Of a stretch of 13,615 bases of DNA, positions 1-13,615 are shown one piece after another. The stretch comes from Planctomycetota bacterium (GTDB taxonomy: Bacteria; Planctomycetota; PUPC01; JACPCR01). The stretch lies in NCBI GenBank assembly GCA_030740295.1, contig JASLXP010000303.1, positions 1-13,615 of the forward strand, read 5' to 3'. A program made the translations under genes and the position numbers. Positions within the stretch are counted from its first letter, which is position 1. Every line of letters begins with the position of its first letter. The notes under the pieces are model-generated. The model saw only the letters and a list, made by a program, of their open reading frames with translations, searched no databases and was not told the origin of the DNA.

Positions 1-165
1 AATGCGTAATTCGTAATGCGTAATTCGTAATGCGTAATTCGTAATGCGTAATTCGTAATGCGTAATTCGTAATGCGTAATTCGTAATGCGTAATTCGTAA
101 TGCGTAATTCGTAATGCGTAATTCGTAATGAGTAATAAGTAATGAGTAATAAGTAATGAGTAAGT
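1..165. repeat. 14-bp tandem repeat (two related heptamers)
   Basis: Nine exact copies of AATGCGTAATTCGT fill positions 1-126 and the array continues off the left edge. Each unit is two related heptamers, AATGCGT and AATTCGT. From 127 the unit changes to AATGAGTAATAAGT for two copies (127-154), followed by a partial copy to 165. The sharp switch between homogeneous blocks suggests expansion by slippage or unequal exchange. No reading frame or promoter is evident inside. Heptameric tandem repeats of this style (STRR-type) are known from intergenic regions of some cyanobacteria and other bacteria; relatedness to those is not claimed. Confidence 0.97.
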
Positions 166-200
166 CTGGGCTGTCACTCCTCCATTGCTCGATCATTCCC

Positions 201-220
201 CTTACTCATTACTCATTACG
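201..220. repeat. Inverted copy of the tandem-repeat unit
   Basis: The 20 bases here read, on the minus strand, CGTAATGAGTAATGAGTAAG, the same heptamer family as the array at 1-165. Positions 153-164 (GTAATGAGTAAG) and 201-212 are perfect 12-bp inverted complements separated by 36 bp, so the end of the array could fold into a stem-loop upstream of the nrdR promoter region. Function unknown. Confidence 0.85.
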
Positions 221-258
221 CCCATTCAACATCCAGTGCACCGGATCGCGACCCCTCC

Positions 259-264
259 TATAAT
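259..264 (+). promoter_or_regulatory. Possible sigma70 -10 box for the nrdR operon
   Basis: A perfect TATAAT lies about 98 bp before the nrdR start. At the expected distance upstream (about 236-241, GTGCAC) there is only a poor -35 match. Transcription from here would give a leader of roughly 90 nt. I see no clear tandem NrdR boxes, so self-regulation by NrdR cannot be read from this sequence. Confidence 0.4.
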
Positions 265-361
265 GGCCGGTCTAATGGCTTTTCGATGCCGTCACTCCCC
301 GCGACAGCCTGCCCCTCTCTGGAATTATTGAATCGCCGTTTATTCTCCGGAGAAGCTCTTC

Positions 362-829
362 ATGAGGTGCCCTTACTGCAAAGTGAATCGTGACAAGGTA
401 GTGGATTCCAGGTCTTCCGCTGACGAAATGGAAATCCGCCGGCGCAGGGAATGCCTGAGCTGTGGACGCCGCTACACCACGTACGAGCGTGTCGCCGAAA
501 CCAGCCTCAGGGTCATCAAGAAGGACGGCCGGCGCGCTCCGTTCGAGCGGGGAAAAATCATGGAGGGCCTGTACAAAGCGTGCGAGAAGCGGTCCGTCTC
601 GGTGGAAGTTCTCGAAGAGATCGTCAACGATATTGAAAAGGAATGCAGCGAACGTTTCGAGAAGGAAGTGCCCACCAAGTTCATCGGTTCACTCATCATG
701 CAGCACCTGCAGAAAACCGATCCGGTGGCATACGTTCGTTTCGCATCCGTTTATCGTGAGTTCAAAGACATTACCGATTTCGCGGACGAACTGCGCAAAA
801 TCGTCCAGGACAGAGGAGGCACCGGTTGA
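362..829 (+). CDS. nrdR: Transcriptional repressor NrdR
   Basis: This is a 155-aa, full-length NrdR, the nucleotide-sensing repressor that binds NrdR boxes upstream of ribonucleotide reductase genes. The N-terminus is a rubredoxin-like zinc ribbon with cysteines 3, 6, 31 and 34 (CPYC and CLSC), followed by the family signature RRRRECLSCGRRYTTYE. Residues about 49-139 form the ATP-cone that binds ATP or dATP, including KKDGRRAPFERGKI, ACEKRSVS and VAYVRFASVYREF. The ATG at 362 is preceded by GGAGAAG at a suitable distance and puts the first Cys at position 3, as usual. Its TGA overlaps the TTG start of the next gene (TTGA, 826-829), implying translational coupling. Nothing looks damaged, and the identification is secure. 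Confidence 0.98.
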   Translation: MRCPYCKVNRDKVVDSRSSADEMEIRRRRECLSCGRRYTTYERVAETSLRVIKKDGRRAPFERGKIMEGLYKACEKRSVSVEVLEEIVNDIEKECSERFEKEVPTKFIGSLIMQHLQKTDPVAYVRFASVYREFKDITDFADELRKIVQDRGGTG

Positions 830-3180
830 CATCTTTAAGGAGTGTTCTCAAACGGGATGGAAGAGAAGTTCCTTTCGATAAAACCAAGATTGCGGATGCC
901 ATCTTCAGGGCCGCTCAAGTGGCCGGCGGCGAGAGTCGAAGCGAATCCGAAGAGCTCACCGAAGCGGTCGTTCTGTTTCTGGAACGAGATTTCAAAGAAG
1001 ACCCTCCGCCCATCGAGGCGATTCAGGACCTGGTCGAGCGCGTTCTGATCGAGACCGGCCACGCGGCCACAGCCAAGGCGTACATCCTTTATCGAGAACG
1101 CCGCACACGGATTCGGAACAGCCTCAAAGTCAGAAAACCTGCGCCCCTTGATGATGCATCGCACGTCAAGGTCTCTCCCGGCACTCGTGACGAAATCGCA
1201 ATCTGGGATCCCGAGAAGATTGTGCTTGCCCTCGAAATCGAAGCACAACTCGAACCTGAAATCGCTCGTGAAATCGCACATGCCGTCGAACAGAAAATAC
1301 TTGCAGCGGGGATGCAGCAGGTGACCACGCTCTTGATCCGGGAGATGGTCGACATCGAGCTCCTCCTCCGCGGTCTGTCGGCATCCCTCGAAAAACAGTC
1401 GTTATTCGGCATGCCGAAATTCGATCTGGATCAGCTTCTATTCCAACGGCAGAAATCGAATCATAAGGTGGTGACGAACAATCCGGAGGCGTTGAATCTG
1501 GCCATTGCTGAACGGCTCTTGCGGCAGTACGCGCTGGATGAGGTCTTCGATAAGGAGGTCGCCAGGGCGCACCTTGCGGGGGTGATACATATTCACGACC
1601 TTGGCTATCCGGCCCGAATCTACCTTGCGAACCATTCACTCGAATTCCTGAAAAAGTTTGGTCTCGCCCTCGAAACGATCGATGTCGCGTCCGCACCGGC
1701 AAAGTATCCGGACACGCTCACATCCCAGTTGTTCACTTTCCTGGGTTCGATGCAGTCGTATGCCGCGGGCCCGCAAGGTATCGACTATCTGAATATCCTC
1801 TTTGCTCCACTTTTGGATGAGCTGGATGACGAGGCCATCTATCAGGAAGCCCAGCGGCTCATCTTCGACGGGGCCCAGCACGCCTCCTCCCGCGGCGGAC
1901 AGACGCTTTGCGCAGAGCTGAACATTTACCCGGATGTTCCACAATGGCTTCAGGGCCTGCCGGCCATTGGCAAGGGAGGGAAGCCAACTGGGAAGAGCTA
2001 CGGAGACTACGCCCGGACCGCAGGAAAATTTGGCAGTGCCCTCCTGGACGTCTGGGAAAGGGGCGATGAATACGGTGGACTTTTCTGTTTTCCAAAATGC
2101 AATTTTCATTTGTCCTCTTCATGTTTTGAAGATCGCCCATCATCGGATTTGCTGGCCAAGGCAGCTCGGGTCGCGGCAACGAACGGCATCCCCGTTTTTG
2201 TCTTTGACCGCAGCGATGCCCCAAGTCTGGGCGTACCGCTCAGAACCGAGTGGAGTTCCGGCCTTCCGCTCGAAAGTCTCCGTGGAGGCGTCATTCAGAG
2301 CGTGACCATAAACTTGCCCCAGGCAGCCTACCGGGCAGGCTCGTGGGATGAGCTGTGGCGCGAAGTTGAAAAGGCGCTCGGGCTGGCTGTTAAAGCGCTC
2401 CAGCAGAAACGGCGACTTGTCGGGAGGCTTTCAGCTACCTCCAGGCTGCCGCTGTGGCAATTGGGACGAACCGTGCGGGACGGCAAACCGTATCTCGACC
2501 TTGAGAACGCCGGCTGCGCGATTGGTCTCATCGGTCTGAATGAGTGCATGGCATTCGTAACCGAAAGCCATTTGCACCAGAGCGAGATTTGCCTCGACCT
2601 GGCCGTGAAACTCTTGCAGAGGATTCGGAAACGGCTGCAAGAGTTTTCGGTGGAAACAGGGCTGAAGTTCTTCCTTGAGGAGTCCCCCGCGGAAAACGCA
2701 GCCCGTCGCCTGGCGAAGGTGGATCTGAACCAGTTCGAGATTGCTGATATCTTCGTGCGCGGCGATGCCGGGGCGGACACCGCACGTTACACCAACGGTA
2801 TCAAGGTCCGACCGGAAGCAGCGATTTCGTACAAAGAACGTCTGCAGATTGAAGGGCGCCTGCATCCCTTCATTGACCTGCATGCTCTCAGCCAGATCTA
2901 CGTCGGCGAGCCGGGGCCTTCGCCCGATGAGATCCTGAATACACTGAAATACGCATGGGAACGGACCGGGGTCTCGCAGCTCGCGTTTACACCATCCTTT
3001 ACCTTTTGCCACGATTGCCGCGCCACCCGCCGCGGCCAGCACGAGCTCTGCACCGTGTGCCAATCGGCCAACACCACCGGCCTCACACGCATTGCCGATT
3101 ACTTCTGCAGAACCACGGAATGGAATCGTTCCAAACTGGATGAATTTCGGCGGCGACATCTTCTGTCAGAGCTTAAATGA
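826..3180 (+). CDS. nrdD: NrdD-family protein lacking the radical Gly and finger-loop Cys (anaerobic ribonucleotide reductase-like)
   Basis: The 784-aa product is homologous along its length to class III (anaerobic) ribonucleoside-triphosphate reductase NrdD, which makes dNTPs with a glycyl radical installed by NrdG. Residues about 4-93 are an ATP-cone (LKRDGREVPFDKTKIADAI), and 100-190 resemble a second, degenerate cone. The core keeps NrdD-like blocks: NNPEALNLAIAERLL, HLAGVIHIHDLGYP, GSMQSYAAGPQG, ASSRGGQ, VTINLPQAAY, IGLIGLNECMAF. The C-terminal zinc site is present (Cys728, 731, 742, 745). The family ends in a motif like RxxGYxxxxxxWN; here it is RIADY, with Asp758 (GAT, 3097-3099) at the glycyl-radical position and no Gly after it. 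No Cys occurs in the region around residues 462-495, where the thiyl-radical Cys is expected. No nrdG is nearby. The TTG start follows GAGGAGG and overlaps the nrdR stop. The fold assignment is strong; catalytic function is doubtful. Confidence 0.9.
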   Translation: MTSLRSVLKRDGREVPFDKTKIADAIFRAAQVAGGESRSESEELTEAVVLFLERDFKEDPPPIEAIQDLVERVLIETGHAATAKAYILYRERRTRIRNSLKVRKPAPLDDASHVKVSPGTRDEIAIWDPEKIVLALEIEAQLEPEIAREIAHAVEQKILAAGMQQVTTLLIREMVDIELLLRGLSASLEKQSLFGMPKFDLDQLLFQRQKSNHKVVTNNPEALNLAIAERLLRQYALDEVFDKEVARAHLAGVIHIHDLGYPARIYLANHSLEFLKKFGLALETIDVASAPAKYPDTLTSQLFTFLGSMQSYAAGPQGIDYLNILFAPLLDELDDEAIYQEAQRLIFDGAQHASSRGGQTLCAELNIYPDVPQWLQGLPAIGKGGKPTGKSYGDYARTAGKFGSALLDVWERGDEYGGLFCFPKCNFHLSSSCFEDRPSSDLLAKAARVAATNGIPVFVFDRSDAPSLGVPLRTEWSSGLPLESLRGGVIQSVTINLPQAAYRAGSWDELWREVEKALGLAVKALQQKRRLVGRLSATSRLPLWQLGRTVRDGKPYLDLENAGCAIGLIGLNECMAFVTESHLHQSEICLDLAVKLLQRIRKRLQEFSVETGLKFFLEESPAENAARRLAKVDLNQFEIADIFVRGDAGADTARYTNGIKVRPEAAISYKERLQIEGRLHPFIDLHALSQIYVGEPGPSPDEILNTLKYAWERTGVSQLAFTPSFTFCHDCRATRRGQHELCTVCQSANTTGLTRIADYFCRTTEWNRSKLDEFRRRHLLSELK

Positions 3181-3184
3181 GCTC

Positions 3185-4444
3185 GTGTCTTCCAACTCAA
3201 CTCCATCCAACGCTGAGGCCGCTGACCTCCAGCGGACAGTCCTCGAAATCATCCGCGGCCAGCGCACGGGATTGGGCGCGTCGGTGGCCAAAGGCTTTCT
3301 GTGGCTTGCATCCGGCGCGTACCGGCTCGGCGCAGGATTTCGCAACACCCTGTACGACCTGAGCCTGAAACAGGCCGGCAGCGTCGATGCAAAAGTGATC
3401 AGCGTCGGCAACCTGACGGTCGGCGGCACCGGCAAGACGCCGGTGGTCGAATGGCTCGGGCGCTGGGTGCTCCAGCGCGGCTATCGCGTTGTAGTTTTGA
3501 GCCGCGGCTATGGCCAAAAGAAAGCGGATACCGGCGGGCCCGTACCGGGCGCTATGAATGACGAAGGTCTCCTCCTGCAGGCAAACCTCGACAACATCCA
3601 TCTTGTTCTCAGCCCGGATCGCCTTCGAGCCGCCGAGACCGCGCTCGAACACATCGACCCGAAACCTGAATGCTTCATCATGGATGATGGTTTCCAGCAC
3701 CGGCGACTCGCCCGGAATCTGGACATCCTTCTTATCGATGCGCTCAACCCTTTCGGCTACGATCATGTGCTGCCACGAGGACTGCTGCGCGAACCCAAGA
3801 AAAATCTCAGGCGCGCGGATGTCATTGTGATCACCCGTTCCGATCAGATTGAGAAAGGTGATCTTGGCGAACTGAAGAACCAGATTCGCCTCCTTGTGCC
3901 CGAAGCCCCGCTCCTCACGGCAGCACACAGACTTAAAGGCATCCTCCAGTGCTCTGACCTATCGCCCATCGGCAGCGGTTGGCTGAAGGGCAAGCGAATC
4001 TACGCCTTCTGCGGACTCGGCAATCCGGAGGGCTTTCGTCGCGAACTTGACAACCTTGGGGGCGAGGTCATCACATGTGAAGAGTTCCCCGATCATCACT
4101 GGTATTCTGATGAAGAGTTTCAGGGCATCGTGAATCGGGCCGAGGAGGCAAACGCGGACCTGCTCTTAACGACACAGAAAGACGCTGTGAAATTCGATCC
4201 TGAATTGGACCTGGATCTTCCTTTCCTCTGCCTCCGAATCGGCATCGAATTCCTCGAGGGCGAGGACGAACTGACCGGTCGGCTGACAGAGATCTTCCCC
4301 GAAGAACGCCCCGCGGCCGGCACAATGTCACAGGACGAATTCAACCAGGCAGTCTCATTCGGTGAGCGTCCGAAGGACTTTCATCGTCCCTGGGAGGAGA
4401 AGTGGTGGGAAAAGGAAGAGGATGGAACAGGGAGTCGAAGCTGA
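3185..4444 (+). CDS. lpxK: Tetraacyldisaccharide 4'-kinase LpxK
   Basis: LpxK is the inner-membrane-associated kinase that phosphorylates the 4' position of the lipid A disaccharide precursor with ATP. The frame carries the family Walker A segment SVGNLTVGGTGKTP (P-loop about residues 80-85 from this start), LSRGYGQ, the MDDGFQHRRLARNLDILLID block, LPRGLLREP, FCGLGNPEGF, FPDHHWYSDEE and LLTTQKDAVK. The first 60 or so residues match the amphipathic N-terminus that anchors LpxK. I chose GTG at 3185, 4 nt after the nrdD stop, because it is the start nearest the point where family homology begins; alternatives are ATG 3140 and TTG 3092, which would overlap nrdD. No start has a strong Shine-Dalgarno. 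At 419 aa it is longer than the usual 320-350, with a charged, Trp-rich tail of about 45 residues (FHRPWEEKWWEKEE). It is probably cotranscribed with nrdR and nrdD, and implies an LPS-bearing outer membrane. Confidence 0.93.
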   Translation: MSSNSTPSNAEAADLQRTVLEIIRGQRTGLGASVAKGFLWLASGAYRLGAGFRNTLYDLSLKQAGSVDAKVISVGNLTVGGTGKTPVVEWLGRWVLQRGYRVVVLSRGYGQKKADTGGPVPGAMNDEGLLLQANLDNIHLVLSPDRLRAAETALEHIDPKPECFIMDDGFQHRRLARNLDILLIDALNPFGYDHVLPRGLLREPKKNLRRADVIVITRSDQIEKGDLGELKNQIRLLVPEAPLLTAAHRLKGILQCSDLSPIGSGWLKGKRIYAFCGLGNPEGFRRELDNLGGEVITCEEFPDHHWYSDEEFQGIVNRAEEANADLLLTTQKDAVKFDPELDLDLPFLCLRIGIEFLEGEDELTGRLTEIFPEERPAAGTMSQDEFNQAVSFGERPKDFHRPWEEKWWEKEEDGTGSRS

Positions 4445-4471
4445 GTGTGAATCCTGACTGAACAGAATCGC

Positions 4472-5203
4472 TCAACTCACCTCTTCAATCTCAGCCTTCC
4501 CGATCCGGCCATCGTGGAGAGCTGTGGCAATGAGTACTGCGGTTGCACCGAGATTACGTTCTCGAATGAGATCGTCTCTGCCGCGAATGCCTCCGCCGGT
4601 GATGAGTTCTATTTCCGGACATGAGCTGATGATGTGCCGGCAAAGTTCGGAAGTGCCAGTACCTTTGCCTGTGCCGACATTCGCCAGATCGAGCACAATC
4701 ATCCGTTTCACGTCTCGCATCAACACTGCATCCGCTATCGATACCGGCGACGGATCCGGCCAGGCCGAAAGGTCGCCCAGAGGTTTGCCTGCTTTGAGGT
4801 CCAGGCTGAACACCAGTTTCTGAGAGAATTCTGATCCAGCTATTCTCCCCAGCGCTTCAGGGCCGCTGATGGATTCCAGGCCGACGATTGTGGCGTCAAC
4901 ATCGGTCGCCGCGAGTGTAAAGAACGACTCTTCATCCGTGATACCAGCATCGACCATGAGTCGGATATTGGCGTTGGTGATGCCAGCATAAGTTTCGAAC
5001 TGTGGCTCGCCGCCGGCGATGGCGTCCAGGTCTGCCAAATACATCTCTTCAAGACCGAAAGCGTCACGATAAGCCTTCGCCACGTCCAGGGGATCGGACG
5101 ACTCCGTCAGACAGGTCTTCACCGGCTGATAGTTGTCGCGCTGTCCCGCGATGGCGTGGACAGCGTGCCCACCCTTAATATCCAGGACAGGTATAACCTT
5201 CAT
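4472..5203 (-). CDS. HisA-like (HisA/HisF-related) TIM-barrel protein, probable C1-cofactor biosynthesis
   Basis: This 243-aa protein has the (beta/alpha)8 fold of HisA/HisF. Asp8 in IPVLDIKGG and Asp135 in FSLDLKAGK occupy the positions of the two catalytic acids of HisA, and the phosphate-binding loops are visible as ITGGGIRGRDDL (201-212) and GATAVLIATALH (219-230). The sequence diverges from true HisA, for example MYLADLDAIAGGEPQ and VLDLANVGTGKGTG. It resembles the hisA/hisF-related family of methanogens and of bacteria with tetrahydromethanopterin-linked C1 metabolism. No other his genes are nearby. It is divergent from an ATP-grasp gene 31 bp away, which supports a cofactor role rather than histidine synthesis. 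The ATG at 5203 has GAGGA just upstream. It converges on lpxK with 27 bp between the stops. The substrate is not known from sequence. Confidence 0.85.
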   Translation of the reverse strand: MKVIPVLDIKGGHAVHAIAGQRDNYQPVKTCLTESSDPLDVAKAYRDAFGLEEMYLADLDAIAGGEPQFETYAGITNANIRLMVDAGITDEESFFTLAATDVDATIVGLESISGPEALGRIAGSEFSQKLVFSLDLKAGKPLGDLSAWPDPSPVSIADAVLMRDVKRMIVLDLANVGTGKGTGTSELCRHIISSCPEIELITGGGIRGRDDLIRERNLGATAVLIATALHDGRIGKAEIEEVS

Positions 5204-5234
5204 CGTTCCTCATCGCTGAGTTGTCTGAGTTCAA

Positions 5235-6305
5235 ATGCCCAGAATTCTGGTATACGAGTTTATATGTGGCGGAGCGCTGGCAGACCAGCCACTGCCGGAT
5301 TCTCTTGCCGCGGAAGGCTGGGCCATGCTATCGGCTGTCGTCAAGGATTTCGGTGCAATCGATGGAACGGAAGTATGGACCACTCTCGACAGCCGCATCC
5401 ATAGATCGCTTGCCGCTGAAGTTAAGGAATTCAGGCCGCAGGAGGAGCGCGATACTCTTCTCTGCCTCGCCTCGAATTGCGATTACGTCCTGGTCATCGC
5501 TCCTGAAACAGATGGCATTCTTTATGAACGTGCCGTCTGGCTTGCAGATTCACCGGCTCGTTGGCTCGGGTGTTCTCCGTCCGCCATCGAACTCACTGCC
5601 GACAAATTCAAGCTAGGAAATCATCTGAAAGACAATGGGATTCCTGCCCTAGCGGTGCAACCACTTCTGTTGGACGCTCTCGAAGGGCTGGAGTTCCCAG
5701 TTGTGATTAAACCCAGGGATGGGGCGGGGTCTGAGAGTACTTTTCTGGTGCCTTCACCTGATGAACTTCTGAATGCTCTCAGTCTTCTGAATCCGCAAGA
5801 TGGAGAACTTGTCCATCAGTCGCTTCATCCCGGAGAGCCGGTCAGTGTGGCATTTCTGTGCGGCCCGGCAGGAGCCAGCGCTCTGCCTCCTTGCAACCAG
5901 CACCTTTCAGATGACGGCCGATTCAGATACCTGGGAGGTCGTGTCCCGTTGGAAGAGGACCTTGCAGTCCGTGCGACATCATTGGCGGCCCAGGCACTTC
6001 GTTGCCTGGATGGTCTGTCTGGGCATGTCGGAGTCGATCTGTTGCTTGGGAGCGAACCACAGGAGGACAGAGTGGTCGAGGTGAATCCCCGTATGACCAC
6101 ATCTTACGTTGGGCTCAGACAGGCGGTGGATGTCAATCTCGCAGAGCAACTGCTCGCGATTGTCGAAGGCGCGGGCCCAAGTGCGCTCAGGGCCAGGAAG
6201 CACATAGCGTTTCAGGCCGAGGGCTCCTGGTCTGAGCTTTCTCCAGAGGCTGAACATCTGCGCACAGCCAAAGAAAGGACCGCGGATAAAGAGGGCCGCG
6301 GATAA
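5235..6305 (+). CDS. ATP-grasp ligase, MfnD/OrfY-like (tyramine-glutamate ligase family)
   Basis: The 356-aa product begins with a Rossmann-like segment (RILVYEFICGGAL), followed by an ATP-grasp domain. Lys124 (TADKFKLGNHL) and Lys159 (FPVVIKP) with the flexible loop DGAGSE (162-167) would bind ATP; Asp268 (GHVGVDLLLG), Glu282 and Asn284 (VVEVNPRMTTSYVG) would bind magnesium. The pattern fits the MfnD/OrfY group, which joins glutamate to tyramine in methanofuran-type cofactors or acts in related steps of C1-carrier synthesis in methylotrophs and planctomycetes. The divergent HisA-like neighbour supports that. Another carboxylate-amine ligase activity is possible. The Shine-Dalgarno is weak (GAG, 6 nt before ATG). 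The last residues (RTADKEGRG) are translated from an intergenic-type 16-bp repeat, so the original C-terminus was probably altered by repeat invasion. Confidence 0.85.
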   Translation: MPRILVYEFICGGALADQPLPDSLAAEGWAMLSAVVKDFGAIDGTEVWTTLDSRIHRSLAAEVKEFRPQEERDTLLCLASNCDYVLVIAPETDGILYERAVWLADSPARWLGCSPSAIELTADKFKLGNHLKDNGIPALAVQPLLLDALEGLEFPVVIKPRDGAGSESTFLVPSPDELLNALSLLNPQDGELVHQSLHPGEPVSVAFLCGPAGASALPPCNQHLSDDGRFRYLGGRVPLEEDLAVRATSLAAQALRCLDGLSGHVGVDLLLGSEPQEDRVVEVNPRMTTSYVGLRQAVDVNLAEQLLAIVEGAGPSALRARKHIAFQAEGSWSELSPEAEHLRTAKERTADKEGRG

Positions 6306-6306
6306 A
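6275..6306. repeat. Two inverted copies of the 16-bp CCGCGG repeat at the gene end
   Basis: Two head-to-tail copies of a GAGGRCCGCGGATAAA-like unit (6275-6290 and 6291-6306) are the reverse complement of the array at 6329-6431. They supply the last codons and the TAA stop of the ATP-grasp gene. The arm 6289-6303 is a perfect 15-bp complement of 6332-6346. Confidence 0.9.
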
Positions 6307-6308
6307 AC

Positions 6309-6330
6309 AAGAACCCCCTTGGGTTTTCTT
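6309..6330 (+). terminator. Terminator-like hairpin between convergent genes
   Basis: AACCC (6312-6316) pairs with GGGTT (6321-6325) around a CCTT loop; a G-T wobble and one A-T pair extend the stem, and a T-rich run follows (TTTTCTT). It is nested inside the 15-bp inverted arms 6289-6303/6332-6346, so the whole 6289-6346 segment can form one long hairpin readable from both strands. It lies between the ATP-grasp gene and the convergent esterase gene, where a bidirectional terminator is expected. Confidence 0.6.
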
Positions 6331-6431
6331 CATCCGCGGCCCTCTTCACCAGCGGTCCTCTTCCACCGCGGTTCTCTTCATCCGCGGTTCTCTTCATCCG
6401 CGGTCCTCTTCATCCTCCTCTTCATCCGCGG
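6329..6431. repeat. Array of 16-bp CCGCGG repeats
   Basis: Five 16-bp units TTCATCCGCGGYYCTC (starts 6329, 6345, 6361, 6377, 6393) with a few substitutions are followed by a 12-bp unit with a 4-bp deletion (6409) and a partial unit (6421-6431) ending 2 bp before the esterase stop codon. The units are contiguous without unique spacers, so this is not a CRISPR array. Confidence 0.95.
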
Positions 6432-6433
6432 AA

Positions 6434-7954
6434 CTATTCCGCCAGCGGCCAATCATCCGTGCGAAATGGAGAGGCGGGCAGGCCAGCACTGTTAATCAGG
6501 TTCGGCTCGGCCTCATGGTGCCAGCCAAACCTCACCGCGACAGGTTTGGCGACGGTTTGGGATGACACAAAGATCGAGTCTCCCTCGATGACGGCGATGG
6601 CGTCCGCAAAAGCTCTGTCCTTGCCGGCTACCTGGAAATGAGTCAACGCCTTGCCGTCATCTGATCGCAGGCCCGCAGCATGATCGAAAGAAATCTTGAT
6701 TCGGCTCTGTTCGATTTTCATATCATGATAGAGCGGCCCGGAATAGACCAGTTTCTTTTCGTAGGTTTTCGAGAGAGCCCACAGAGCCAGGCGAGCACCC
6801 ACATCCTGTTTATTCCGCGGATGAATATTACGCGTGTTTCCAATGTCGGTGATGACTGCCATGCCTGTGTGCGGCACTTTAAGTGTTGCGGCCTGCGCTT
6901 CCCAGATGCGAGGAAGCAATTCGGGATTTGAGTTCCCGTAACGAAAGGGAGCCAATTGGGTGAAAATGAAAGGCATCGACTCGTCTTTCCAGACATGACG
7001 CCAGCCTGCGATGAGGGCCTTCATCTTCTCGTGATACACCATGCCGTCGCGAAGATTCGATTCGCCCTGATACCAGATAGCCCCGCGGATGGAGAATGGC
7101 GCCAAAGGATTAAGCATCGCATTGAAAAGATTGGAAGGATAGTTATGTGATTTGCGCGGCTGGATCGGTACGCGTGGCCGGCGAAGTGCCTTGCCCTTTC
7201 TTCCACCTTTGAGCCATGCCTTCCATGCAGTGAGGTCCGCGGCGTATTTCGCCTTTGCCTTCTCGGGCACGAAAGCTTCATCCCTCGCATCCCAGGAGGC
7301 CCTGAGGCCCTTGACAACATCGTCATCTTTCTGGCTCTCCCAGGGCGTCCATGTTTCTATGCAGGAACCGCCCCACGAGGTATCAATCAGGCCAATCGGA
7401 ATCTTGAGATCTTGGTACAGTCTGCGTCCGAAGAAGTATCCCGCCGCTGTGAAATTCCTCACGGTTTCCGGAGAGCACACTGCCCACGAAACCACCGCGC
7501 AGTCGGTCTGAGGCGCGTTGGCCGTCACACGATTGACGCCAAGCAGACGCATTTGCGGATACTTTGCCGCGGCGATCTCTTTGTCCGCGTTGATGACCCC
7601 GTTAACGGTCATACCCATATTGGATTGCCCCGAACAGAGCCACACTTCGCCGATGAGCACATCCTTGAGCTCGATCGTGTTCTTGCCTCTGACTGTGACG
7701 GAATAGGGCCCGCCCGCGGCTGGTGTCCGCAGAGCCGCTTTCCACTTGCCGGTGTCGTCGGCCGTCGTCGCAGCCTTCTCTCCCCATGTGCCGGAGACAG
7801 CCACCCCCTCGCCTTTTTCGGCCCATCCCCAGAGGACTGCCGACGTCTCTTGCTGCAGCACCATGTGGTCGGCAAAGACGGCCGGAAGCTTGACGTCCGC
7901 GACGGCCGTCGATGCGGCACTCACCAGAACGAGAATCCATGAACACTTTTTCAT
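6434..7954 (-). CDS. Secreted sialate O-acetylesterase-like SGNH hydrolase
   Basis: This 506-aa protein resembles bacterial sialate 9-O-acetylesterases, SGNH-type enzymes that remove acetyl groups from sialic acids or other polysaccharide sugars. A Sec signal peptide is seen at residues 1-19 (MKKCSWILVL... STAVA, cleavage before DVKLP). An N-terminal beta domain starts with LPAVFADHMVLQQ, typical of the family. The nucleophile motif is LCSGQSNM (Ser111); other blocks are IDTSWGGSCIETWTP and IWYQGESNLRDG, and the acid/base pair is likely Asp370 and His378 in TDIGNTRNIHP. The start at 7954 was preferred over the upstream ATG at 8026 because it places the signal peptide at the N-terminus and has AAAGGA 8 nt before it. 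It lies downstream of the toroid protein on the same strand with a 141-bp gap. It probably acts in the periplasm or outside the cell on glycans; the true substrate is uncertain. Confidence 0.92.
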   Translation of the reverse strand: MKKCSWILVLVSAASTAVADVKLPAVFADHMVLQQETSAVLWGWAEKGEGVAVSGTWGEKAATTADDTGKWKAALRTPAAGGPYSVTVRGKNTIELKDVLIGEVWLCSGQSNMGMTVNGVINADKEIAAAKYPQMRLLGVNRVTANAPQTDCAVVSWAVCSPETVRNFTAAGYFFGRRLYQDLKIPIGLIDTSWGGSCIETWTPWESQKDDDVVKGLRASWDARDEAFVPEKAKAKYAADLTAWKAWLKGGRKGKALRRPRVPIQPRKSHNYPSNLFNAMLNPLAPFSIRGAIWYQGESNLRDGMVYHEKMKALIAGWRHVWKDESMPFIFTQLAPFRYGNSNPELLPRIWEAQAATLKVPHTGMAVITDIGNTRNIHPRNKQDVGARLALWALSKTYEKKLVYSGPLYHDMKIEQSRIKISFDHAAGLRSDDGKALTHFQVAGKDRAFADAIAVIEGDSIFVSSQTVAKPVAVRFGWHHEAEPNLINSAGLPASPFRTDDWPLAE

Positions 7955-8095
7955 ATTTGAAATCCTTTGAGTGAAGGCGCCGCTCGAAAGACGCAGGATG
8001 TTAGGGACAAGCGCCGGTAGAGCCAATCAGACTGCAGCCGCAGCAGAGCAGCTAACATCGCTTCGTGGGCAGAAGAGGTCCGAGTCGGGACCGTG

Positions 8096-9850
8096 TCACT
8101 CGCCAATCCTCTTTATCTTTGCCGTTTCCAGGCCATAGGTCAGGTCACCGTTTTCATCCACGATCGTGGAAATGTCTGCGCGGTAAATGCCGCTTGAATC
8201 TTTGAAAGTCAGGATGCCATTCGAATCCAGCTCGTCTTCCAGGAACGAAAAGGACTCGTTCGAGAACGCGAAGGCCGTGCTGGCTCCGTCTGGGAATCTG
8301 TAAACCAGCGACTGCACGTTGCGTTCTACGGCTGGATCCCAGGCGCGGAGATGCACCGCGATCGTCTGTTCCTCGAGCTCACGATTTTTGCCGAGGGAGT
8401 AGATGCACCCTCTCCTGCCCTCGAATCGCACGGCGTTCTTTTCAAAAACGGGTTCTGCGGGCTCGAGGGGGTCTAGTGTCCAGCGCGTGATGCGTTCGCC
8501 GGTGGGGCCGGTGTGGATCAATACGGTCGAGACATCCGTGAAGATGGCGACGCTTCGGAGGGTCTGATTGCGCCATACGACGAATGATGGCTCATCCGGC
8601 AAGTTCTTCCGACTGCTTCCTTCTTCACGCCAGGCGATGTCCGCGGCCATGCATCCTGGGCCGTATTCGTAATTGAGATGGCTGCATGAAAAGCGTGCCG
8701 TATCGATGCCCCATGCCTGGGTCGTTGAAGGGGCATCATGGACCGGATGAAGGATGGGCGGCTCCCCTCCCCAGGCCCACGTCTGGATTCCCCTGAGCGG
8801 AAGAAAACCGGTAAAGGTGATCCCCGTCTGATACTGCCGGGTTATCAGGGCATATTTGATGGGCGAGCGGCCAAAGTAAACGGTCTCGTAAAGCTGAGTG
8901 AACGGTCGTTCCCACTCTTCGATGTCTTCCCTGGAAGGTTTCATTTCGCCTCCCTGGTTCGCCAGAATCTGACCTTCGAGACCTTCGGACTGGTACTGCT
9001 GCTCCTCCATCATTCGATCGAGCAGATGGCGATACATGGGCTGCTTTGAAGAGAAATATTCCAGGCCCGAATAGATATCGCTGGGCCGGGTCATCTCACG
9101 GACGTGATATTTTCGAGAGCTCGCACCAGGGATCAGGTAAAGGCTTTCCGTGTGCCATTTGCGAAACCAATCCAGGCCCGCACGCAGTCGGGCGTCGAAT
9201 TCGGTTGTGGCCGCGTACTGCGCGTAGGAGTAACAGAATGCATATGCGAGATAGGAATAATGCGGGCATGGCCCATACTGTTCGACAACCTGGCCATTAT
9301 CGGCGAGGGCACGGAGCATCCCGGCATCGCCGACTTCTCTTGCCTGGCGGTAGTATTCCTCATCGCCTGTCACCTGTGCGTAGAGCAAATCTGCCACAAA
9401 ACAGGCCATATCCTGGTTACCGGGCGGGCCGGAGCCCTTGCGCTTTCGAAATGCGTCCGCATCGGCCTGGAAGGCATCGATCACCAGCGAACTTAGTTCT
9501 TCGCTGAAATCCTCTTCGACCCAGATGAATGTGGGCACGAGCGAACAGATCGTCCAGGCATGTTCGTGGCTCAACGATTCGGGAGTGCGTGCTTCCTTTA
9601 TTTTCTTCTGCGACCATTCCCTGAATCCGTTCTGATGAAGCTCGAGAATTTTCGGGTTCTTGTGATGCTTCGACAAAGGGCAGAAATAAGCAAAGGCCAT
9701 CGAGTGATTGATGTCGGATGGATTCTCCGCATCCTTCAGTGAATTCAAAGCCCCATCCAGGCGGGAATCGATGAGCGACTGCAGCCATCGTGTACGTTCG
9801 TTGTCGTTGATTGCAGGTTTTAGTATCCCGCGAAGCGTTTCGATGTTCAT
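8096..9850 (-). CDS. Predicted (alpha/alpha)-toroid glycan lyase-like protein, heparinase II/III-like
   Basis: The 584-aa protein has a helical N-terminal half (about 1-330) rich in paired aromatic/Ala helices, for example NQDMACFVADLLYAQVTG and HYSYLAYAFCYSYAQYA, with a conserved-looking EQYGPCPHYSY segment. A beta-rich C-terminal half follows (about 350-584: YALITRQYQTGITFTGFL, SFVVWRNQTLRSVAIF). That layout matches alginate-lyase/heparinase II-type enzymes: toroid plus beta-sandwich. I cannot assign a polysaccharide-lyase family, and no catalytic residue is certain. No signal peptide is seen. I chose ATG 9850 (MNIETLRG) rather than 9967, because the earlier start would run through the divergent hydrolase gene; its Shine-Dalgarno is weak. 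The esterase and a second heparinase-like gene nearby suggest glycan degradation. Moderate confidence in the class, low in the function. Confidence 0.7.
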   Translation of the reverse strand: MNIETLRGILKPAINDNERTRWLQSLIDSRLDGALNSLKDAENPSDINHSMAFAYFCPLSKHHKNPKILELHQNGFREWSQKKIKEARTPESLSHEHAWTICSLVPTFIWVEEDFSEELSSLVIDAFQADADAFRKRKGSGPPGNQDMACFVADLLYAQVTGDEEYYRQAREVGDAGMLRALADNGQVVEQYGPCPHYSYLAYAFCYSYAQYAATTEFDARLRAGLDWFRKWHTESLYLIPGASSRKYHVREMTRPSDIYSGLEYFSSKQPMYRHLLDRMMEEQQYQSEGLEGQILANQGGEMKPSREDIEEWERPFTQLYETVYFGRSPIKYALITRQYQTGITFTGFLPLRGIQTWAWGGEPPILHPVHDAPSTTQAWGIDTARFSCSHLNYEYGPGCMAADIAWREEGSSRKNLPDEPSFVVWRNQTLRSVAIFTDVSTVLIHTGPTGERITRWTLDPLEPAEPVFEKNAVRFEGRRGCIYSLGKNRELEEQTIAVHLRAWDPAVERNVQSLVYRFPDGASTAFAFSNESFSFLEDELDSNGILTFKDSSGIYRADISTIVDENGDLTYGLETAKIKRIGE

Positions 9851-9890
9851 TCGCTTATCGTAGTCAAGGCGGTAAGCGAGGAAAAGCTCT

Positions 9891-10760
9891 ATGCAGTGGA
9901 AAATCCTGAACCCTCTGACTTCCACCGGTTTTCTACTTCCTGATGGCTGCGGGCAGGGCCGGGACATCCTGATCGACCTGAGTTACGCGGGGCCGTCACT
10001 GCAGGAGAGATTGGAGGGTTTTGGAAGTGGTATCGAAAGAGTGGATTCCCTGTTCATCACGCATCTGCATGCGGATCATTTTCTGCCTGCTGAGGCGCTT
10101 GAGCTGGCCAAGGCTGGCTGCCGCATTCTGATCGAGCGCGAGGCCTGGACTCTCATGCAGCAATTGCGCGGAGAAGGGGAGAAGGGCGCACTGCTGCTGG
10201 CCTCTTGCGATGAGATTGAAAGTCTCGGTGTTCTAAATTTTCTTGAACCGTCAGGTGAGATGTCTGTAGGTGAACGGCACATCGCGTGGGCAACCTACCG
10301 TCACGGCAACGGGGACATCCATTGCGATAACCTGGCCTTTCTGGTGGACGCTCACCTGTTTACCGGCGATACGAGCATCACTTCCTTCTTTGACGAATCA
10401 AGACCGGATGACACGGATCTGGTCGCACGTAACGCCGGCGACACGCGTGTTTTATTCGTCAATATCGCCCACCTGAGCCGAAAGGACATCCAATCCCGCA
10501 CGGATCTCAACGAGCGGCGCATTCGAAACTACCTGACCAATCATGGAATCCTGGAAGACTTGGTGGCCGCCATCGAGAGCGGCAGCTATTCGGACTTCTT
10601 TGCGGGCCTGGACGCCATCGTTCCCTGTCACATCCGAAAAGCGCCTCTTGAAGAAACGGCAACAATCATGCGGGAGCAGTTGCTGACTTCTGCTCTGAAG
10701 ACGGGATACCGATACGAAGTCCTCTTTCCGGACCAGACTGATACGTCCCTGCAGCTTTGA
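9891..10760 (+). CDS. Metallo-beta-lactamase-fold hydrolase
   Basis: This is a 289-aa MBL-fold protein. The metal-binding motif is ITHLHADHF with His58, His60, Asp62 and His63; further likely ligands are His138 (TYRHGNGD) and Asp160 (LFTGDTS), with a C-terminal His at 194 or about 245. The N-terminal strands (GFLLPDGCGQGRDILIDLSY) precede the motif as expected. The substrate class (phosphodiester, lactone, thioester or other) cannot be told. The start has GAGGAAA 8 nt upstream. It is head to head with the toroid protein gene, the two starts being 40 bp apart, so their promoters must overlap each other's 5' ends. No signal peptide is seen, so it is likely cytoplasmic. Confidence 0.9.
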   Translation: MQWKILNPLTSTGFLLPDGCGQGRDILIDLSYAGPSLQERLEGFGSGIERVDSLFITHLHADHFLPAEALELAKAGCRILIEREAWTLMQQLRGEGEKGALLLASCDEIESLGVLNFLEPSGEMSVGERHIAWATYRHGNGDIHCDNLAFLVDAHLFTGDTSITSFFDESRPDDTDLVARNAGDTRVLFVNIAHLSRKDIQSRTDLNERRIRNYLTNHGILEDLVAAIESGSYSDFFAGLDAIVPCHIRKAPLEETATIMREQLLTSALKTGYRYEVLFPDQTDTSLQL

Positions 10761-11086
10761 GACTTACGACGTCTCGGCAGAAAAACGCGGCAAAACGCTA
10801 AAGTTTTCGGAACTGTTCCGATAATTCTCTGGGCATTATTTTGGCCAGAGCCCTACGGGAGCGCGAAAGGAGTGAACCAGTCTTCTTTCTGCCAGGCATT
10901 GCAGCGGGACAATATATCCTGGGCCGAGCCTGCGCGTTCTCTCATTCGCCAACATTTATGACGTAACAGAATCAGCAGTTAAGGTCCCCAACTGCCAATA
11001 TTTCGGCTCAATCTCAAACCCTCCGAGGTCGAGCCCGGCAGGCGGAATTCGTACATTCTTGTCTGGAGGGGATGAGGAGTTTCATC
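10761..11086 (+). promoter_or_regulatory. Intergenic leader with a 15-bp palindrome
   Basis: No gene is seen in this stretch. It holds a perfect palindrome, TCGGAAC-T-GTTCCGA (10807-10821), that could be an operator; the spacing does not fit the Gram-positive LexA box. A small stem GCAGTT/AACTGC lies near 10975-10997. The end carries the Shine-Dalgarno AGGAG 7 nt before the ATG at 11087. I cannot place a promoter with confidence. Confidence 0.4.
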
Positions 11087-11503
11087 ATGTCCTGGTTTCA
11101 TTTTCCGTCGCCATCTGTCGACAACATCAAAATCAAGAACGTGTGGGCCACCAATGTCGTGAATAACGACGTAACTCAGGCCAGCCAGCAAAAAGGCAAA
11201 GATAGCGGCTGGTGGTGGGGAGGCGGTGGTGTCAGTAACACCGTCAGTCAGACTGCTACCAATGTGCAGCAGCACAATGACGCGTTCAACAACGTCAACG
11301 TCGGTACCAGCGCCAAAAAGAGCAATGTCACTATCAAGAATGTCGGTGCCAGCAACATTGTGAACAACACACTGGTGCAGGCTAACGACCAGAAAGGCAC
11401 CACCTGGGGTGGCTGGGGGAGCGTCACGAATGGCGCCTGGCAGTCCTCCACCAACAACCAGAACTACAATGATGCCTTCAACAACATCAACGTCTGGGCC
11501 TGA
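11087..11503 (+). CDS. Asn/Gln-rich protein with two tandem ~65-residue repeats
   Basis: The 138-aa product is not a family I recognise. It consists of two homologous repeats after a short leader (MSWFHFPSPSVD). NIKIKNVWATNVVNN (13-27) aligns with NVTIKNVGASNIVNN (80-94); QASQQKG with QANDQKG; and VSNTVSQTATN...NDAFNNVNV (49-72) with VTNGAWQSSTN...NDAFNNINV (113-136). A Gly/Trp-rich linker (GWWWGGGG, WGGWGS) sits in the middle of each. Alternating hydrophobic and Asn/Gln residues suggest beta-strand stacking, as in beta-solenoids or curlin-like fibres; this is inference. There is no Sec signal peptide or membrane segment. ATG 11087 is chosen because AGGAG is 7 nt upstream; the ATG at 11072 has its GGAGG too close. 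It is monocistronic, with an intrinsic terminator 28 bp after the stop. Confidence 0.8.
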   Translation: MSWFHFPSPSVDNIKIKNVWATNVVNNDVTQASQQKGKDSGWWWGGGGVSNTVSQTATNVQQHNDAFNNVNVGTSAKKSNVTIKNVGASNIVNNTLVQANDQKGTTWGGWGSVTNGAWQSSTNNQNYNDAFNNINVWA

Positions 11504-11531
11504 GCCCCAGCTCTGATGACAATCTGCCTGG

Positions 11532-11563
11532 GCCGGATCGGTGGCAACGCCGGTCCGGCTTTT
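11532..11563 (+). terminator. Intrinsic terminator of the first repeat-protein gene
   Basis: GCCGGATCGG (11532-11541) pairs with CCGGTCCGGC (11550-11559) with one T-G wobble, loop TGGCAACG, followed by TTTT. It lies just downstream of the stop codon at 11503. Confidence 0.8.
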
Positions 11564-11573
11564 GGCATTTCTG

Positions 11574-11596
11574 GCCTTGACGCTCCGCGACAAGGC
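11574..11596. promoter_or_regulatory. GC-rich near-perfect inverted repeat upstream of the second repeat-protein gene
   Basis: GCCTTG-A-CGC (11574-11583) and GCG-A-CAAGGC (11587-11596) are 10-nt arms with a single A/A mismatch around a 3-nt loop. It follows the first terminator by 10 bp. It could be an operator for the downstream gene or a back-up terminator (the following bases are TTCATTT). A second hairpin at 11662-11674/11683-11695, 13-nt arms with two mismatches, lies in the presumed leader. Confidence 0.4.
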
Positions 11597-11738
11597 TTCA
11601 TTTCAAATCTGTTACTCGGCCGCCCCAGCACTCTCCCAGGAAATGCGACCGGGTCTGAAGCGATCAGATCAGGGCCGCCAGCCCCTGACCAGATCCAGTC
11701 CTGGCTGACATCTCATGTCTTTTGAGGGGGAACTTCTC

Positions 11739-12272
11739 ATGGCTTTCATCGGAAACATCAGCATCGGAACGGGATTCTTCCCGAAAGGATTCTTTACTAC
11801 CGTCTTCGCACCTCTGGCCGATACCGGAGGTACCGCATCAAACACCGCGAACATTACGCAGGATGCGGACGCAGGGGATGACGGAACAGGAAGTAACACC
11901 GTCGATCTCGATCAGAACGCAACGACCGGTGCGGGAGGCACCGCGACCAATGTGGCCAATATCGACCAGGATGCCGACGGAGGCACTGCCAGCAATACGG
12001 TTGACCTGGATCAGGATGCTACCGCCGGCGGAACGGGGGCCGGCAGTACTGGAACCGCAGCAACGCCCGTGCTTTTTCTGAGACCTTTCAGCGGAACCTT
12101 CGTGAACCTCAGAAACCTGGGCGCAGGGATCTTCACGAGCAACGCACAACTTCAGAACCTCTTTCAATTCGGCATCGCGGGCTCCGGAGGCAATGTCTCA
12201 AACACGGCCACACAGAACGCAGACGCCGACATCTCGGCCGACGTGGACCTAACGGTGAACATCACAATCTGA
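11739..12272 (+). CDS. Acidic Asp/Asn/Gly/Thr-rich repeat protein, predicted beta-solenoid
   Basis: The 177-aa product is of unknown family. Residues 31-97 are four tandem units of 15-18 residues with consensus GTxSNTxxxxxQxAxxG: GTASNTANITQDADAG (31), GTGSNTVDLDQNATTG (49), GTATNVANIDQDADGG (67) and GTASNTVDLDQDATAG (82). The glutamines are at 41, 59, 77 and 92. A fifth, divergent unit (NVSNTATQNADAD) is at 152-164. A hydrophobic insert (PVLFLRPF... NLFQFGIAG, 110-148) separates them. Regular Asn and Gln ladders are seen in curlin and other beta-solenoid proteins, and the many Asp residues could bind calcium. There is no Sec signal peptide. ATG 11739 has GAGGGGG 8 nt upstream; ATG 11715 has none. 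The VSNT(V/A)xQxA motif is shared with the preceding gene. It is followed closely by a strong terminator, so it is monocistronic. Confidence 0.8.
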   Translation: MAFIGNISIGTGFFPKGFFTTVFAPLADTGGTASNTANITQDADAGDDGTGSNTVDLDQNATTGAGGTATNVANIDQDADGGTASNTVDLDQDATAGGTGAGSTGTAATPVLFLRPFSGTFVNLRNLGAGIFTSNAQLQNLFQFGIAGSGGNVSNTATQNADADISADVDLTVNITI

Positions 12273-12295
12273 GAACCCGCAGTCTGAGAACCAGG

Positions 12296-12335
12296 AGAGG
12301 GCAGGCAGTCGAGAGACTGCCTGCCCTCTGTTTTT
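12296..12335 (+). terminator. Strong intrinsic terminator of the second repeat-protein gene
   Basis: AGAGGGCAGGCAGTC (12296-12310) and GACTGCCTGCCCTCT (12315-12329) form a perfect 15-bp stem with a GAGA tetraloop, followed by G and TTTTT. It begins 24 bp after the stop codon. Confidence 0.95.
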
Positions 12336-12340
12336 CCGGG

Positions 12341-12609
12341 TCTGATATGGAGTATTGGAACGCCGGAATAAATGGGCAATCTTCAAAATCGGGTCACCCA
12401 CACCCATGGGGCATCGAAAAACGTGCTGCAGTCTGTAGCTGAAAGAGCTGGAGCACGCCGGTTGTTGCAGAAGTGCCATTTCCTCTGGTATCAAATCAGG
12501 AGGTGACTTGCCCTCATCGATCATGTGGTAAGCCCATCGGCGCTTTTCTGTGACACGAAACTGTAAGATGCAATGCCTTGCCCCAGTTCGCAGGCGCCGT
12601 CGATGAGAG
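12341..12609. other. Intergenic stretch with no supported feature
   Basis: Between the terminator and the 3' end of the heparinase-like gene I find no convincing gene. Small open frames on the minus strand (12524-12249 and 12757-12521) either read through the terminator and the end of the neighbouring gene or overlap the heparinase-like gene in another frame, and neither has a good ribosome-binding site. It may hold remnants of coding sequence. Confidence 0.4.
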
Positions 12610-13615
12610 CTACTGTTCCGGGTAGCACCGATAGCCGTCCAGCCATGCTTCTATCTCTCCCTCCGACGCAGACCTGCGAATCCCATTGAGTGTTCTTCCC
12701 TTGGCTACAAGTCCGCGACCGCCGTTGGCCGGCTTTGGGATCTGCTTGGCGCGACACTTGGCCGGATGGGCGGCAGGTGAGCTCTCGATCAGGAAGGCGT
12801 CGTGTGACTCAAGGGAGTCGGGGGCGAGCTGAACGAATCGGAAATGGCGGCCATCTGCGAACCGCAATGAAGCCCCTGTCGCCAGGTCGACACTTTCGCT
12901 CTCGACCGCCAGAGGTTTAACTTCTTCGATACGGCAGTCACGGCTTTCAGGGATCGGTACGAAGACGTGCAAGAGCGCGATCGGCTCGTTGACCCGCGTG
13001 TGCGTTGCCAGGACCGGCAGGGGCTCGAGGCTGACCCGTTCGTCCAGAGTTTCCGCCCCGACTGGGGCCGCGGGATCGTCTCCCGATAGGATGATCGAGG
13101 ATTTGCACGAACCTGGGCAAACCGTCCAGGCGGCGATCGTGGAGGGGGGCTCGTCTGCCGGAACGCCACTTGTGCGCGAGGGTCTGGTGTTGATCGTACG
13201 GAAACAATTCTCCTCCCTCTCAACCTTCTCGCCGGAGAGGTGGAAGATAGCCGCTGCTTCATGCTCGTCGCCGTCGATGGGCCATAAGAAGTCGGACACA
13301 AAGAAGATGTCCGGTTTCGCAAAGAAGATGGCCCGCTTCCAACGCATATGGCGAACGGGCCTGGGCCAGTCCTCGTCCGGCTGTTTGGGATTCGTCCAGC
13401 CGCCGTCGTACACGCCGGAGGCATAATCGAAGTCGGGCGTCGTCTGCCACCGGTTGGATTCGTACGGCTCATTAAGCAACTGCAGGTGCATCGTCTCTGG
13501 CCCGTGACGCCGCGAAGGCGGCTTACCGTCGATGAGCACTGTGTTGTGCTCGGAGCCGCACCACCCGCCGTAGTACCCGCTTTCTCGGCCGTGCATTCTG
13601 CCGTGGCTGTAGAGC
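12610..13615 (-). CDS. Heparinase II/III-like protein, C-terminal part (cut by window edge)
   Basis: The frame is open from the right edge (codons before the internal ATG at 13596 read LYSHGR), so this is the 3' part of a longer gene, about 335 residues. It contains a heparinase II/III C-terminal beta-sandwich signature: GCGSEHNTVLIDGKPP-like segment (WCGSEHNTVLIDG), then RHMRWKRAIFFAKPDIFFVSDFLW, HLSGEKVE and ALLHVFVP. These enzymes eliminatively cleave sulfated or acidic glycosaminoglycans; the catalytic toroid domain would lie outside the window. The gene ends in TAG at 12610. The two repeat-protein genes and the MBL gene, all on the opposite strand, separate it from the other lyase-like gene. 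The family assignment is good, the substrate unknown. Confidence 0.85.
   Translation of the reverse strand, partial: LYSHGRMHGRESGYYGGWCGSEHNTVLIDGKPPSRRHGPETMHLQLLNEPYESNRWQTTPDFDYASGVYDGGWTNPKQPDEDWPRPVRHMRWKRAIFFAKPDIFFVSDFLWPIDGDEHEAAAIFHLSGEKVEREENCFRTINTRPSRTSGVPADEPPSTIAAWTVCPGSCKSSIILSGDDPAAPVGAETLDERVSLEPLPVLATHTRVNEPIALLHVFVPIPESRDCRIEEVKPLAVESESVDLATGASLRFADGRHFRFVQLAPDSLESHDAFLIESSPAAHPAKCRAKQIPKPANGGRGLVAKGRTLNGIRRSASEGEIEAWLDGYRCYPEQ

Follow-up and report, generated by a model that had tools for sequence, protein, structure and literature searches.

A radical-less NrdD homologue maintained beside nrdR in Planctomycetota, with a possible nucleotide-sensing role in NrdR repression

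Ribonucleotide reductases (RNRs) are essential, and specialists would be surprised by a cellular homologue that is maintained but unable to carry a radical. A gene of this kind appears to lie in a 13,615-nt stretch of DNA from a Planctomycetota bacterium (GCA_030740295.1, contig JASLXP010000303.1, positions 1 to 13,615, forward strand), here called the window, and the question it raises is what a relative of the class III reductase NrdD is kept for once its catalytic residues are gone. The TTG start of the gene overlaps the stop codon of nrdR (GTTGA at 825-829), and the features of the locus are collected in Table 1. Pfam recovers the NRDD family and, judged by sequence and by model, the protein keeps the NrdD barrel fold; its score against TIGR02487, the NCBIfam equivalog model of NrdD, falls short of the cut-off. 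The ATP-cone is matched as two stretches, the best of which covers residues 6-94. Pfam gives no domain besides NRDD and ATP-cone, and an N-terminal Zn ribbon or DNA-binding domain of the NrdR type was not found in this protein. Downstream, the frame listed for lpxK begins within nrdD, with the LpxK domain starting at residue 69 of that frame.

Table 1. Coordinates of the nrdR-nrdD-lpxK locus and of the motifs discussed, in window positions
Feature	Position	Strand	Basis
nrdR, transcriptional repressor (Zn ribbon and ATP-cone)	362..829	+	TIGR00244 189.1 bits, cut-off 124.65
Apparently radical-less NrdD homologue, 784 aa	826..3180	+	PF13597 318.3 bits; TIGR02487 280.1 bits, below cut-off 326.35
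N-terminal ATP-cone region, residues about 4-205	835..1440	+	PF03477 97.1 bits
Substrate-flap motif, NxN changed to NxK (N212, K214)	1459..1467	+	Sequence and alignment
HxHD triphosphate-binding motif, H255-D258, kept	1588..1599	+	Sequence and alignment
beta1 cysteine position, now Leu267	1624..1626	+	Alignment
Finger-loop stretch, residues 462-495, without Cys	2209..2310	+	DNA translation and alignment
Cys4 zinc site C728, C731, C742, C745, intact	3007..3060	+	DNA translation
Asp758 (GAT), radical-glycine position	3097..3099	+	DNA and alignment
lpxK, downstream neighbour replacing nrdG	3092..4444	+	ORF list, family profiles

An initial annotation, made from the DNA alone, had proposed that aspartate replaces the radical glycine, and this holds both in the DNA and in the alignment, which places Asp758 at the radical glycine of the homologues. 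The translation bears out two further statements of that annotation, namely that the C-terminus is free of glycine (the last one in the protein is residue 752) and that the Cys4 zinc site is intact. To place these changes among homologues, 7998 candidate proteins were scored, of which 1621 passed, and the best 120 of the 1621 were aligned. In this set the window's own cluster is followed by five clusters (P0003-P0007) at 61-88% identity and then by a block at 47-51%. An R[IV][VTI]GY motif is found within the last 120 residues of 113 of these 120 homologues; the tail reads RIADYF in the window's cluster and in P0003-P0007, and these six proteins are termed type A. One further aligned protein, P0098, has a different glycine-less tail and retains CCRLR. 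Homologues with both catalytic residues, which the annotation had named as grounds for rejecting its reading, do exist in the 47-51% block, but this block is distinct from type A, and its members give the window protein neither residue back.

The second loss concerns the finger loop, which reads LGVPLR in the window protein and SACCRLR in relatives. The annotated absence of cysteine from residues 462-495 holds for the window protein but not for the whole group, as two of the six type A proteins (P0003, P0005) have a cysteine within 460-494, in unconserved places. For the T. maritima enzyme, activity near background is reported when either cysteine of SCCR is replaced (C329A and C330A; PMC4493059). 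Two losses go beyond the earlier description. Position 267, which the alignment equates with the beta1 cysteine of P. copri NrdD (C171 in PMC11226230), is Cys in all 29 rows of relatives retaining the cysteines ("Cys+" rows, which in these counts and in the regional ones below include two, L025 and L027, without the radical glycine), and Leu or Met in 6/6 type A proteins; in the substrate flap, NxN has become NxK at 214, again in all six. The HxHD motif and the zinc site are present in type A, as is N496. Where 86 relatives show at least 95% conservation, type A never has the conserved residue at 80 positions and retains it at 209; 2 of the lost and 37 of the retained positions fall within residues 1-99, and 18 and 15, respectively, within residues 450-499. 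Compared with the enzymes of known structure (P. copri 8p23/8p2s, S. thermophilus 9d3x, T. maritima 4u3e, phage T4 1h78), the window protein differs in the radical glycine, the SCCR and beta1 cysteines and the substrate flap.

Both losses, Asp758 and that of the finger-loop cysteines, are common to the five clusters at 61-88% identity. A single sequencing error, which the annotation had considered doubtful, is also unlikely on this broader basis: six clusters of proteins from separate contigs share the state, and it recurs in the genes of two genome assemblies; of these two, G062 represents the source type of cluster P0006. We are highly confident that the window protein is a radical-less relative of NrdD. 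As some such proteins, P0006 for example, are named anaerobic ribonucleoside-triphosphate reductase, predictions of anaerobic DNA synthesis from planctomycete genomes can be mistaken.

At E 1e-60 or better, 87 of 392 Planctomycetota genomes match P0001, and the type A form was found in two of them, G131 and G062, which belong to the same family and are the sole members of their order in the set. Their class is represented by nine genomes, and the other seven carry NrdD at 45-50% identity, with the radical glycine in four (G161, G146, G081, G099), without it in two (G115, G042) and cut at the contig end in one (G011). A check for another RNR, suggested by the annotation and run on the genomes of these two relatives, was positive in each: G131 encodes a class I enzyme (nrdA with ATP-cones, nrdB) and G062 a class II enzyme without ATP-cone. 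A second NrdD was not found in either genome, nor was an NrdG2 above cut-off, the NrdG search having used the TIGR02495 model only and weaker radical SAM matches being present; both absences are tentative, as the completeness of the genomes is not given. The gene order usual in Cys+ relatives, nrdR-nrdD-nrdG, is replaced by nrdR-nrdD-lpxK in type A.

These genomes bear directly on the reading that the protein is still an active class III RNR, with another protein providing the glycyl radical in trans. Such an arrangement is suggested for relatives, as a small glycyl-radical protein is encoded in the genome of each of the 15 Cys+ NrdDs read that are without the radical glycine. In G131 and G062, however, no separate glycyl-radical protein was found, the glycyl-radical profile matching only the Asp loop of NrdD itself, and the SCCR and beta1 cysteines, too, are missing from the type A proteins. 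This reading is thus largely refuted, and we give it almost no weight.

The arrangement in relatives is of interest in its own right. Classification of 47 NrdD loci gave 30 with both cysteines and glycine, two of type A and 15 that retain the SCCR cysteines and the zinc site without having the radical glycine (L025, L027, L047, L063, L179-L186, L191-L193). A separate protein with an NrdD-type radical loop is encoded in the genomes of 15/15 of the glycine-less loci versus 20/30 of those with cysteines and glycine (Fisher p 0.019); in the small proteins, represented by L187-L190, the loop reads RIVGYYSR or RIVGYFSR. In total, 56/392 genomes were counted with a separate glycyl-radical protein, a number that includes G107 and G249, in both of which the match holds a stop, and G325 (540 aa frame). 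Going by these sequences, the glycine-less NrdD and the small protein may together be a split class III RNR, or the small protein may be a spare part. The small proteins resemble YfiD/GrcA, the spare parts of pyruvate formate-lyase (PFL), in that a separate small protein carries a glycyl-radical loop, but the loop of the planctomycete proteins is of the NrdD type and often occurs where NrdD lacks its own radical glycine; as of 2021, only the PFL spare parts are described as validated (PMC8683613). Five small glycyl-radical proteins (L166-L170), of about 130 aa and without zinc site, are encoded in G089, G196, G154 and G123, where NrdD has a radical glycine of its own, and may serve as spare parts for it. 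The NrdD of L025 (genome G276) ends in RIGDYF, with Asp at the radical position and Gly one residue earlier, and keeps CCRLR; the small glycyl-radical protein of G276 is encoded elsewhere in the genome.

A much wider family of degraded NrdD descendants became apparent when residues 1-265 were used as query, which match 212 of the 392 genomes at E 1e-12. From the match list 73 places were taken, and with L111 dropped as a piece of the G319 NrdD, they give at least 72 loci without catalytic motifs, termed type B; the matching genomes G039, G103, G135, G200, G213, G238 and G283 were not taken into this sample. Residue and region counts use 66 of the 73, with the partial frames L037, L111, L129, L131, L141, L146 and L159 omitted; in L037, L146 and L159 the first part of the cone goes unmatched in the open frame. 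Across the 72 loci the cones are kept, the barrel signal is weak or absent and the C-terminal domain is missing in most. The glycyl-radical profile had no match in any of their genomes, including those of the two among 73 proteins that contain an RxxGY string (L043 near the end, L152 twice inside). Four of the 66 full frames have no cysteine whatever, which excludes thiyl chemistry in these four. In 63/72 loci the next gene upstream, in the same orientation, is nrdR, the median gap being -1 nt when starts are deduced from alignment, and in the other nine nrdR is absent from that place; a class I or II RNR was matched in 12 of 13 type B genomes searched, the exception being G140. Beside seven loci (L034, L035, L036, L037, L130, L136, L139) there is an NrdG-like radical SAM gene with intact CX3CX2C, and the profile search found no glycyl-radical protein in their genomes.

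Type A forms one clade with full support. In the tree of the cones it is placed among Cys+ proteins, which would make its loss separate from that of type B; the full-length tree differs, and in an AU test a joint clade of type A and type B is not significantly worse (p 0.111).

The type A gene encodes a maintained protein under purifying selection, since its losses are shared by homologues and the whole-gene dN/dS between the window and G131, the single pair tested, is 0.064 at a synonymous distance of 1.12. For the same pair the ratio is 0.123 in cone 1, the highest of the regions, 0.042 in cone 2, 0.062 in the barrel, 0.051 in the finger stretch and 0.046 in the tail, and that of nrdR is 0.058. 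A decaying pseudogene or an assembly artefact might be suspected from the lost catalytic residues and from the far-diverged type B barrel, but the low dN/dS, the full-length open frames in six clusters and dozens of open type B genes make this very improbable.

Mean pairwise identity in Cys+ rows (406 pairs) is 0.82 in the barrel, 0.91 in the finger and 0.78 and 0.71 in the two cones; in type A (15 pairs) barrel and finger are both at 0.64 and the cones at 0.75 and 0.70, and in type B (2145 pairs) the barrel is at 0.22 and the cones at 0.43 and 0.36. Constraint has moved from the barrel to the ATP-cones in the degraded descendants. The cone residues K9, R10, D11, R13, R93 and R97 are present in all six type A proteins, and the counterparts of P. 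copri K7, R8, R87 and R91 are kept in 6/6 type A proteins and in 53, 61, 56 and 52 of the 66 type B rows, respectively.

Alternatively, the old barrel may have been repurposed as an enzyme of other, non-radical chemistry or as a ligand-binding protein. This would agree with 51 positions that are invariant in type A and found in at most 5% of the 86 relatives (among them H352, C421, C433, H686, Q690 and D758), with the kept HxHD and N496, and with a dN/dS that is low in barrel and tail also. No known active-site motif was recognised, however, no neighbouring gene points to a pathway, and in type B it is the barrel that is strongly degraded while the cones stay; we consider repurposing unlikely. 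At window positions 2086-2124, type A has gained the invariant C421 and C433 near the conserved C425 and H428 (C-x3-C-x2-H-x4-C), a cluster that might form a metal or redox site.

The initial annotation had suggested that the protein is a conserved pseudo-enzyme in which ATP-cones are retained, and the shared losses, the purifying selection in one pair, the kept cone contact residues, nrdR directly upstream and the two genomes with a class I or II RNR in which neither a second NrdD nor an NrdG2 above cut-off was found all agree with it. We favour, at a probability of roughly 0.5, the reading that this NrdD-derived pseudo-enzyme binds ATP and dATP through its cones and tunes the repression that NrdR exerts on the RNR of class I or II. 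The protein is almost certainly unable to reduce ribonucleotides; it would bind ATP or dATP through the cones and, being co-produced with NrdR, would modulate the nucleotide-dependent repression exerted by the latter. An NrdR-linked nucleotide-sensing role of radical-less NrdD as such is put forward tentatively. According to PMC9110341, binding of NrdR to two boxes requires dATP and ATP. NrdR shares the ATP-cone and the operon with the window NrdD, but it measures about 150 aa and carries a Zn ribbon. The neighbourhood itself is inherited and not newly made, because nrdR, which is immediately upstream in 3/3 type A loci, is likewise found ahead of nrdD genes whose catalytic residues are intact.

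For the scoring of NrdR boxes, our own weights and thresholds (pairs spaced 31-32 bp, score at least 24) were applied to an assumed NrdR-box consensus, at loci with a recognisable nrdR start and enough upstream DNA (58 of 72 type B, 7 of 29 Cys+ and 3 type A). On these weights, box pairs lie upstream of nrdR in 27/58 type B loci versus 0/1006 control stretches, and in 5/7 Cys+ loci versus 1/113 controls; within 300 bp upstream of nrdR, none was found at the three type A loci under the same assumed consensus. The best pair in 15-16 kb is located upstream of nrdA in G131 and of nrdJ in G062, its score being reached by 1/200 and 3/200 shuffles, respectively, and in G062 a second pair scores nearly as high as the one upstream of nrdJ.

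The cones could also act on the reductase rather than on the repressor, if the protein were a trans regulatory subunit of the active class I or II RNR, lending it an ATP-cone or binding it in an inhibitory complex. Movement of ATP-cones from one RNR subunit to another is known (PMC5794259), and no ATP-cone match was found in the RNRs of G062 and G170, both of class II, or in that of G034. The RNRs of G131, G018 and G201, however, own ATP-cones despite the presence of a radical-less NrdD, which leaves three of six each way, and the NrdD gene adjoins nrdR and not an RNR gene; this alternative appears quite unlikely.

Extended to the phylum, the preferred reading, partnership with NrdR, leads to a broader proposal, to which we would give slightly less than even odds: lineages of Planctomycetota that abandoned anaerobic ribonucleotide reduction may have kept NrdD as a radical-less ATP-cone partner of NrdR, the barrel eroding while the cones stay, and the window protein would represent an early, nearly full-length stage. 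If true, repressor and dead RNR would form a two-protein nucleotide sensor. If the partnership holds, it would show an allosteric enzyme turning into a regulator and give NrdR a partner within its own operon. As relatives exist in three states, with the radical in cis, apparently in trans, or none, the route of the loss is testable.

Catalytically dead RNR homologues occur in some herpesviruses. They are alike in that an RNR-derived protein is kept for another role, but they are viral and of class I lineage, and their origin and role are unrelated to those of the planctomycete NrdD. Searches of open PMC full text, with subscription journals and preprints outside the scope, brought up no title or abstract dealing with a radical-less NrdD, with an NrdD partner of NrdR or with a trans glycyl-radical subunit for NrdD.

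Elsewhere in the window, two forward-strand ORFs (11072-11503 and 11715-12272) contain degenerate Asn/Thr/Asp-rich repeats and have no Pfam match. Closer to the locus, a HisA/HisF-related protein is encoded on the reverse strand (4472-5203) and an ATP-grasp protein like the tyramine-glutamate ligase MfnD on the forward strand (5235-6305), each scoring below its NCBIfam cut-off, and this gene pair is also present near the type A gene in G131.
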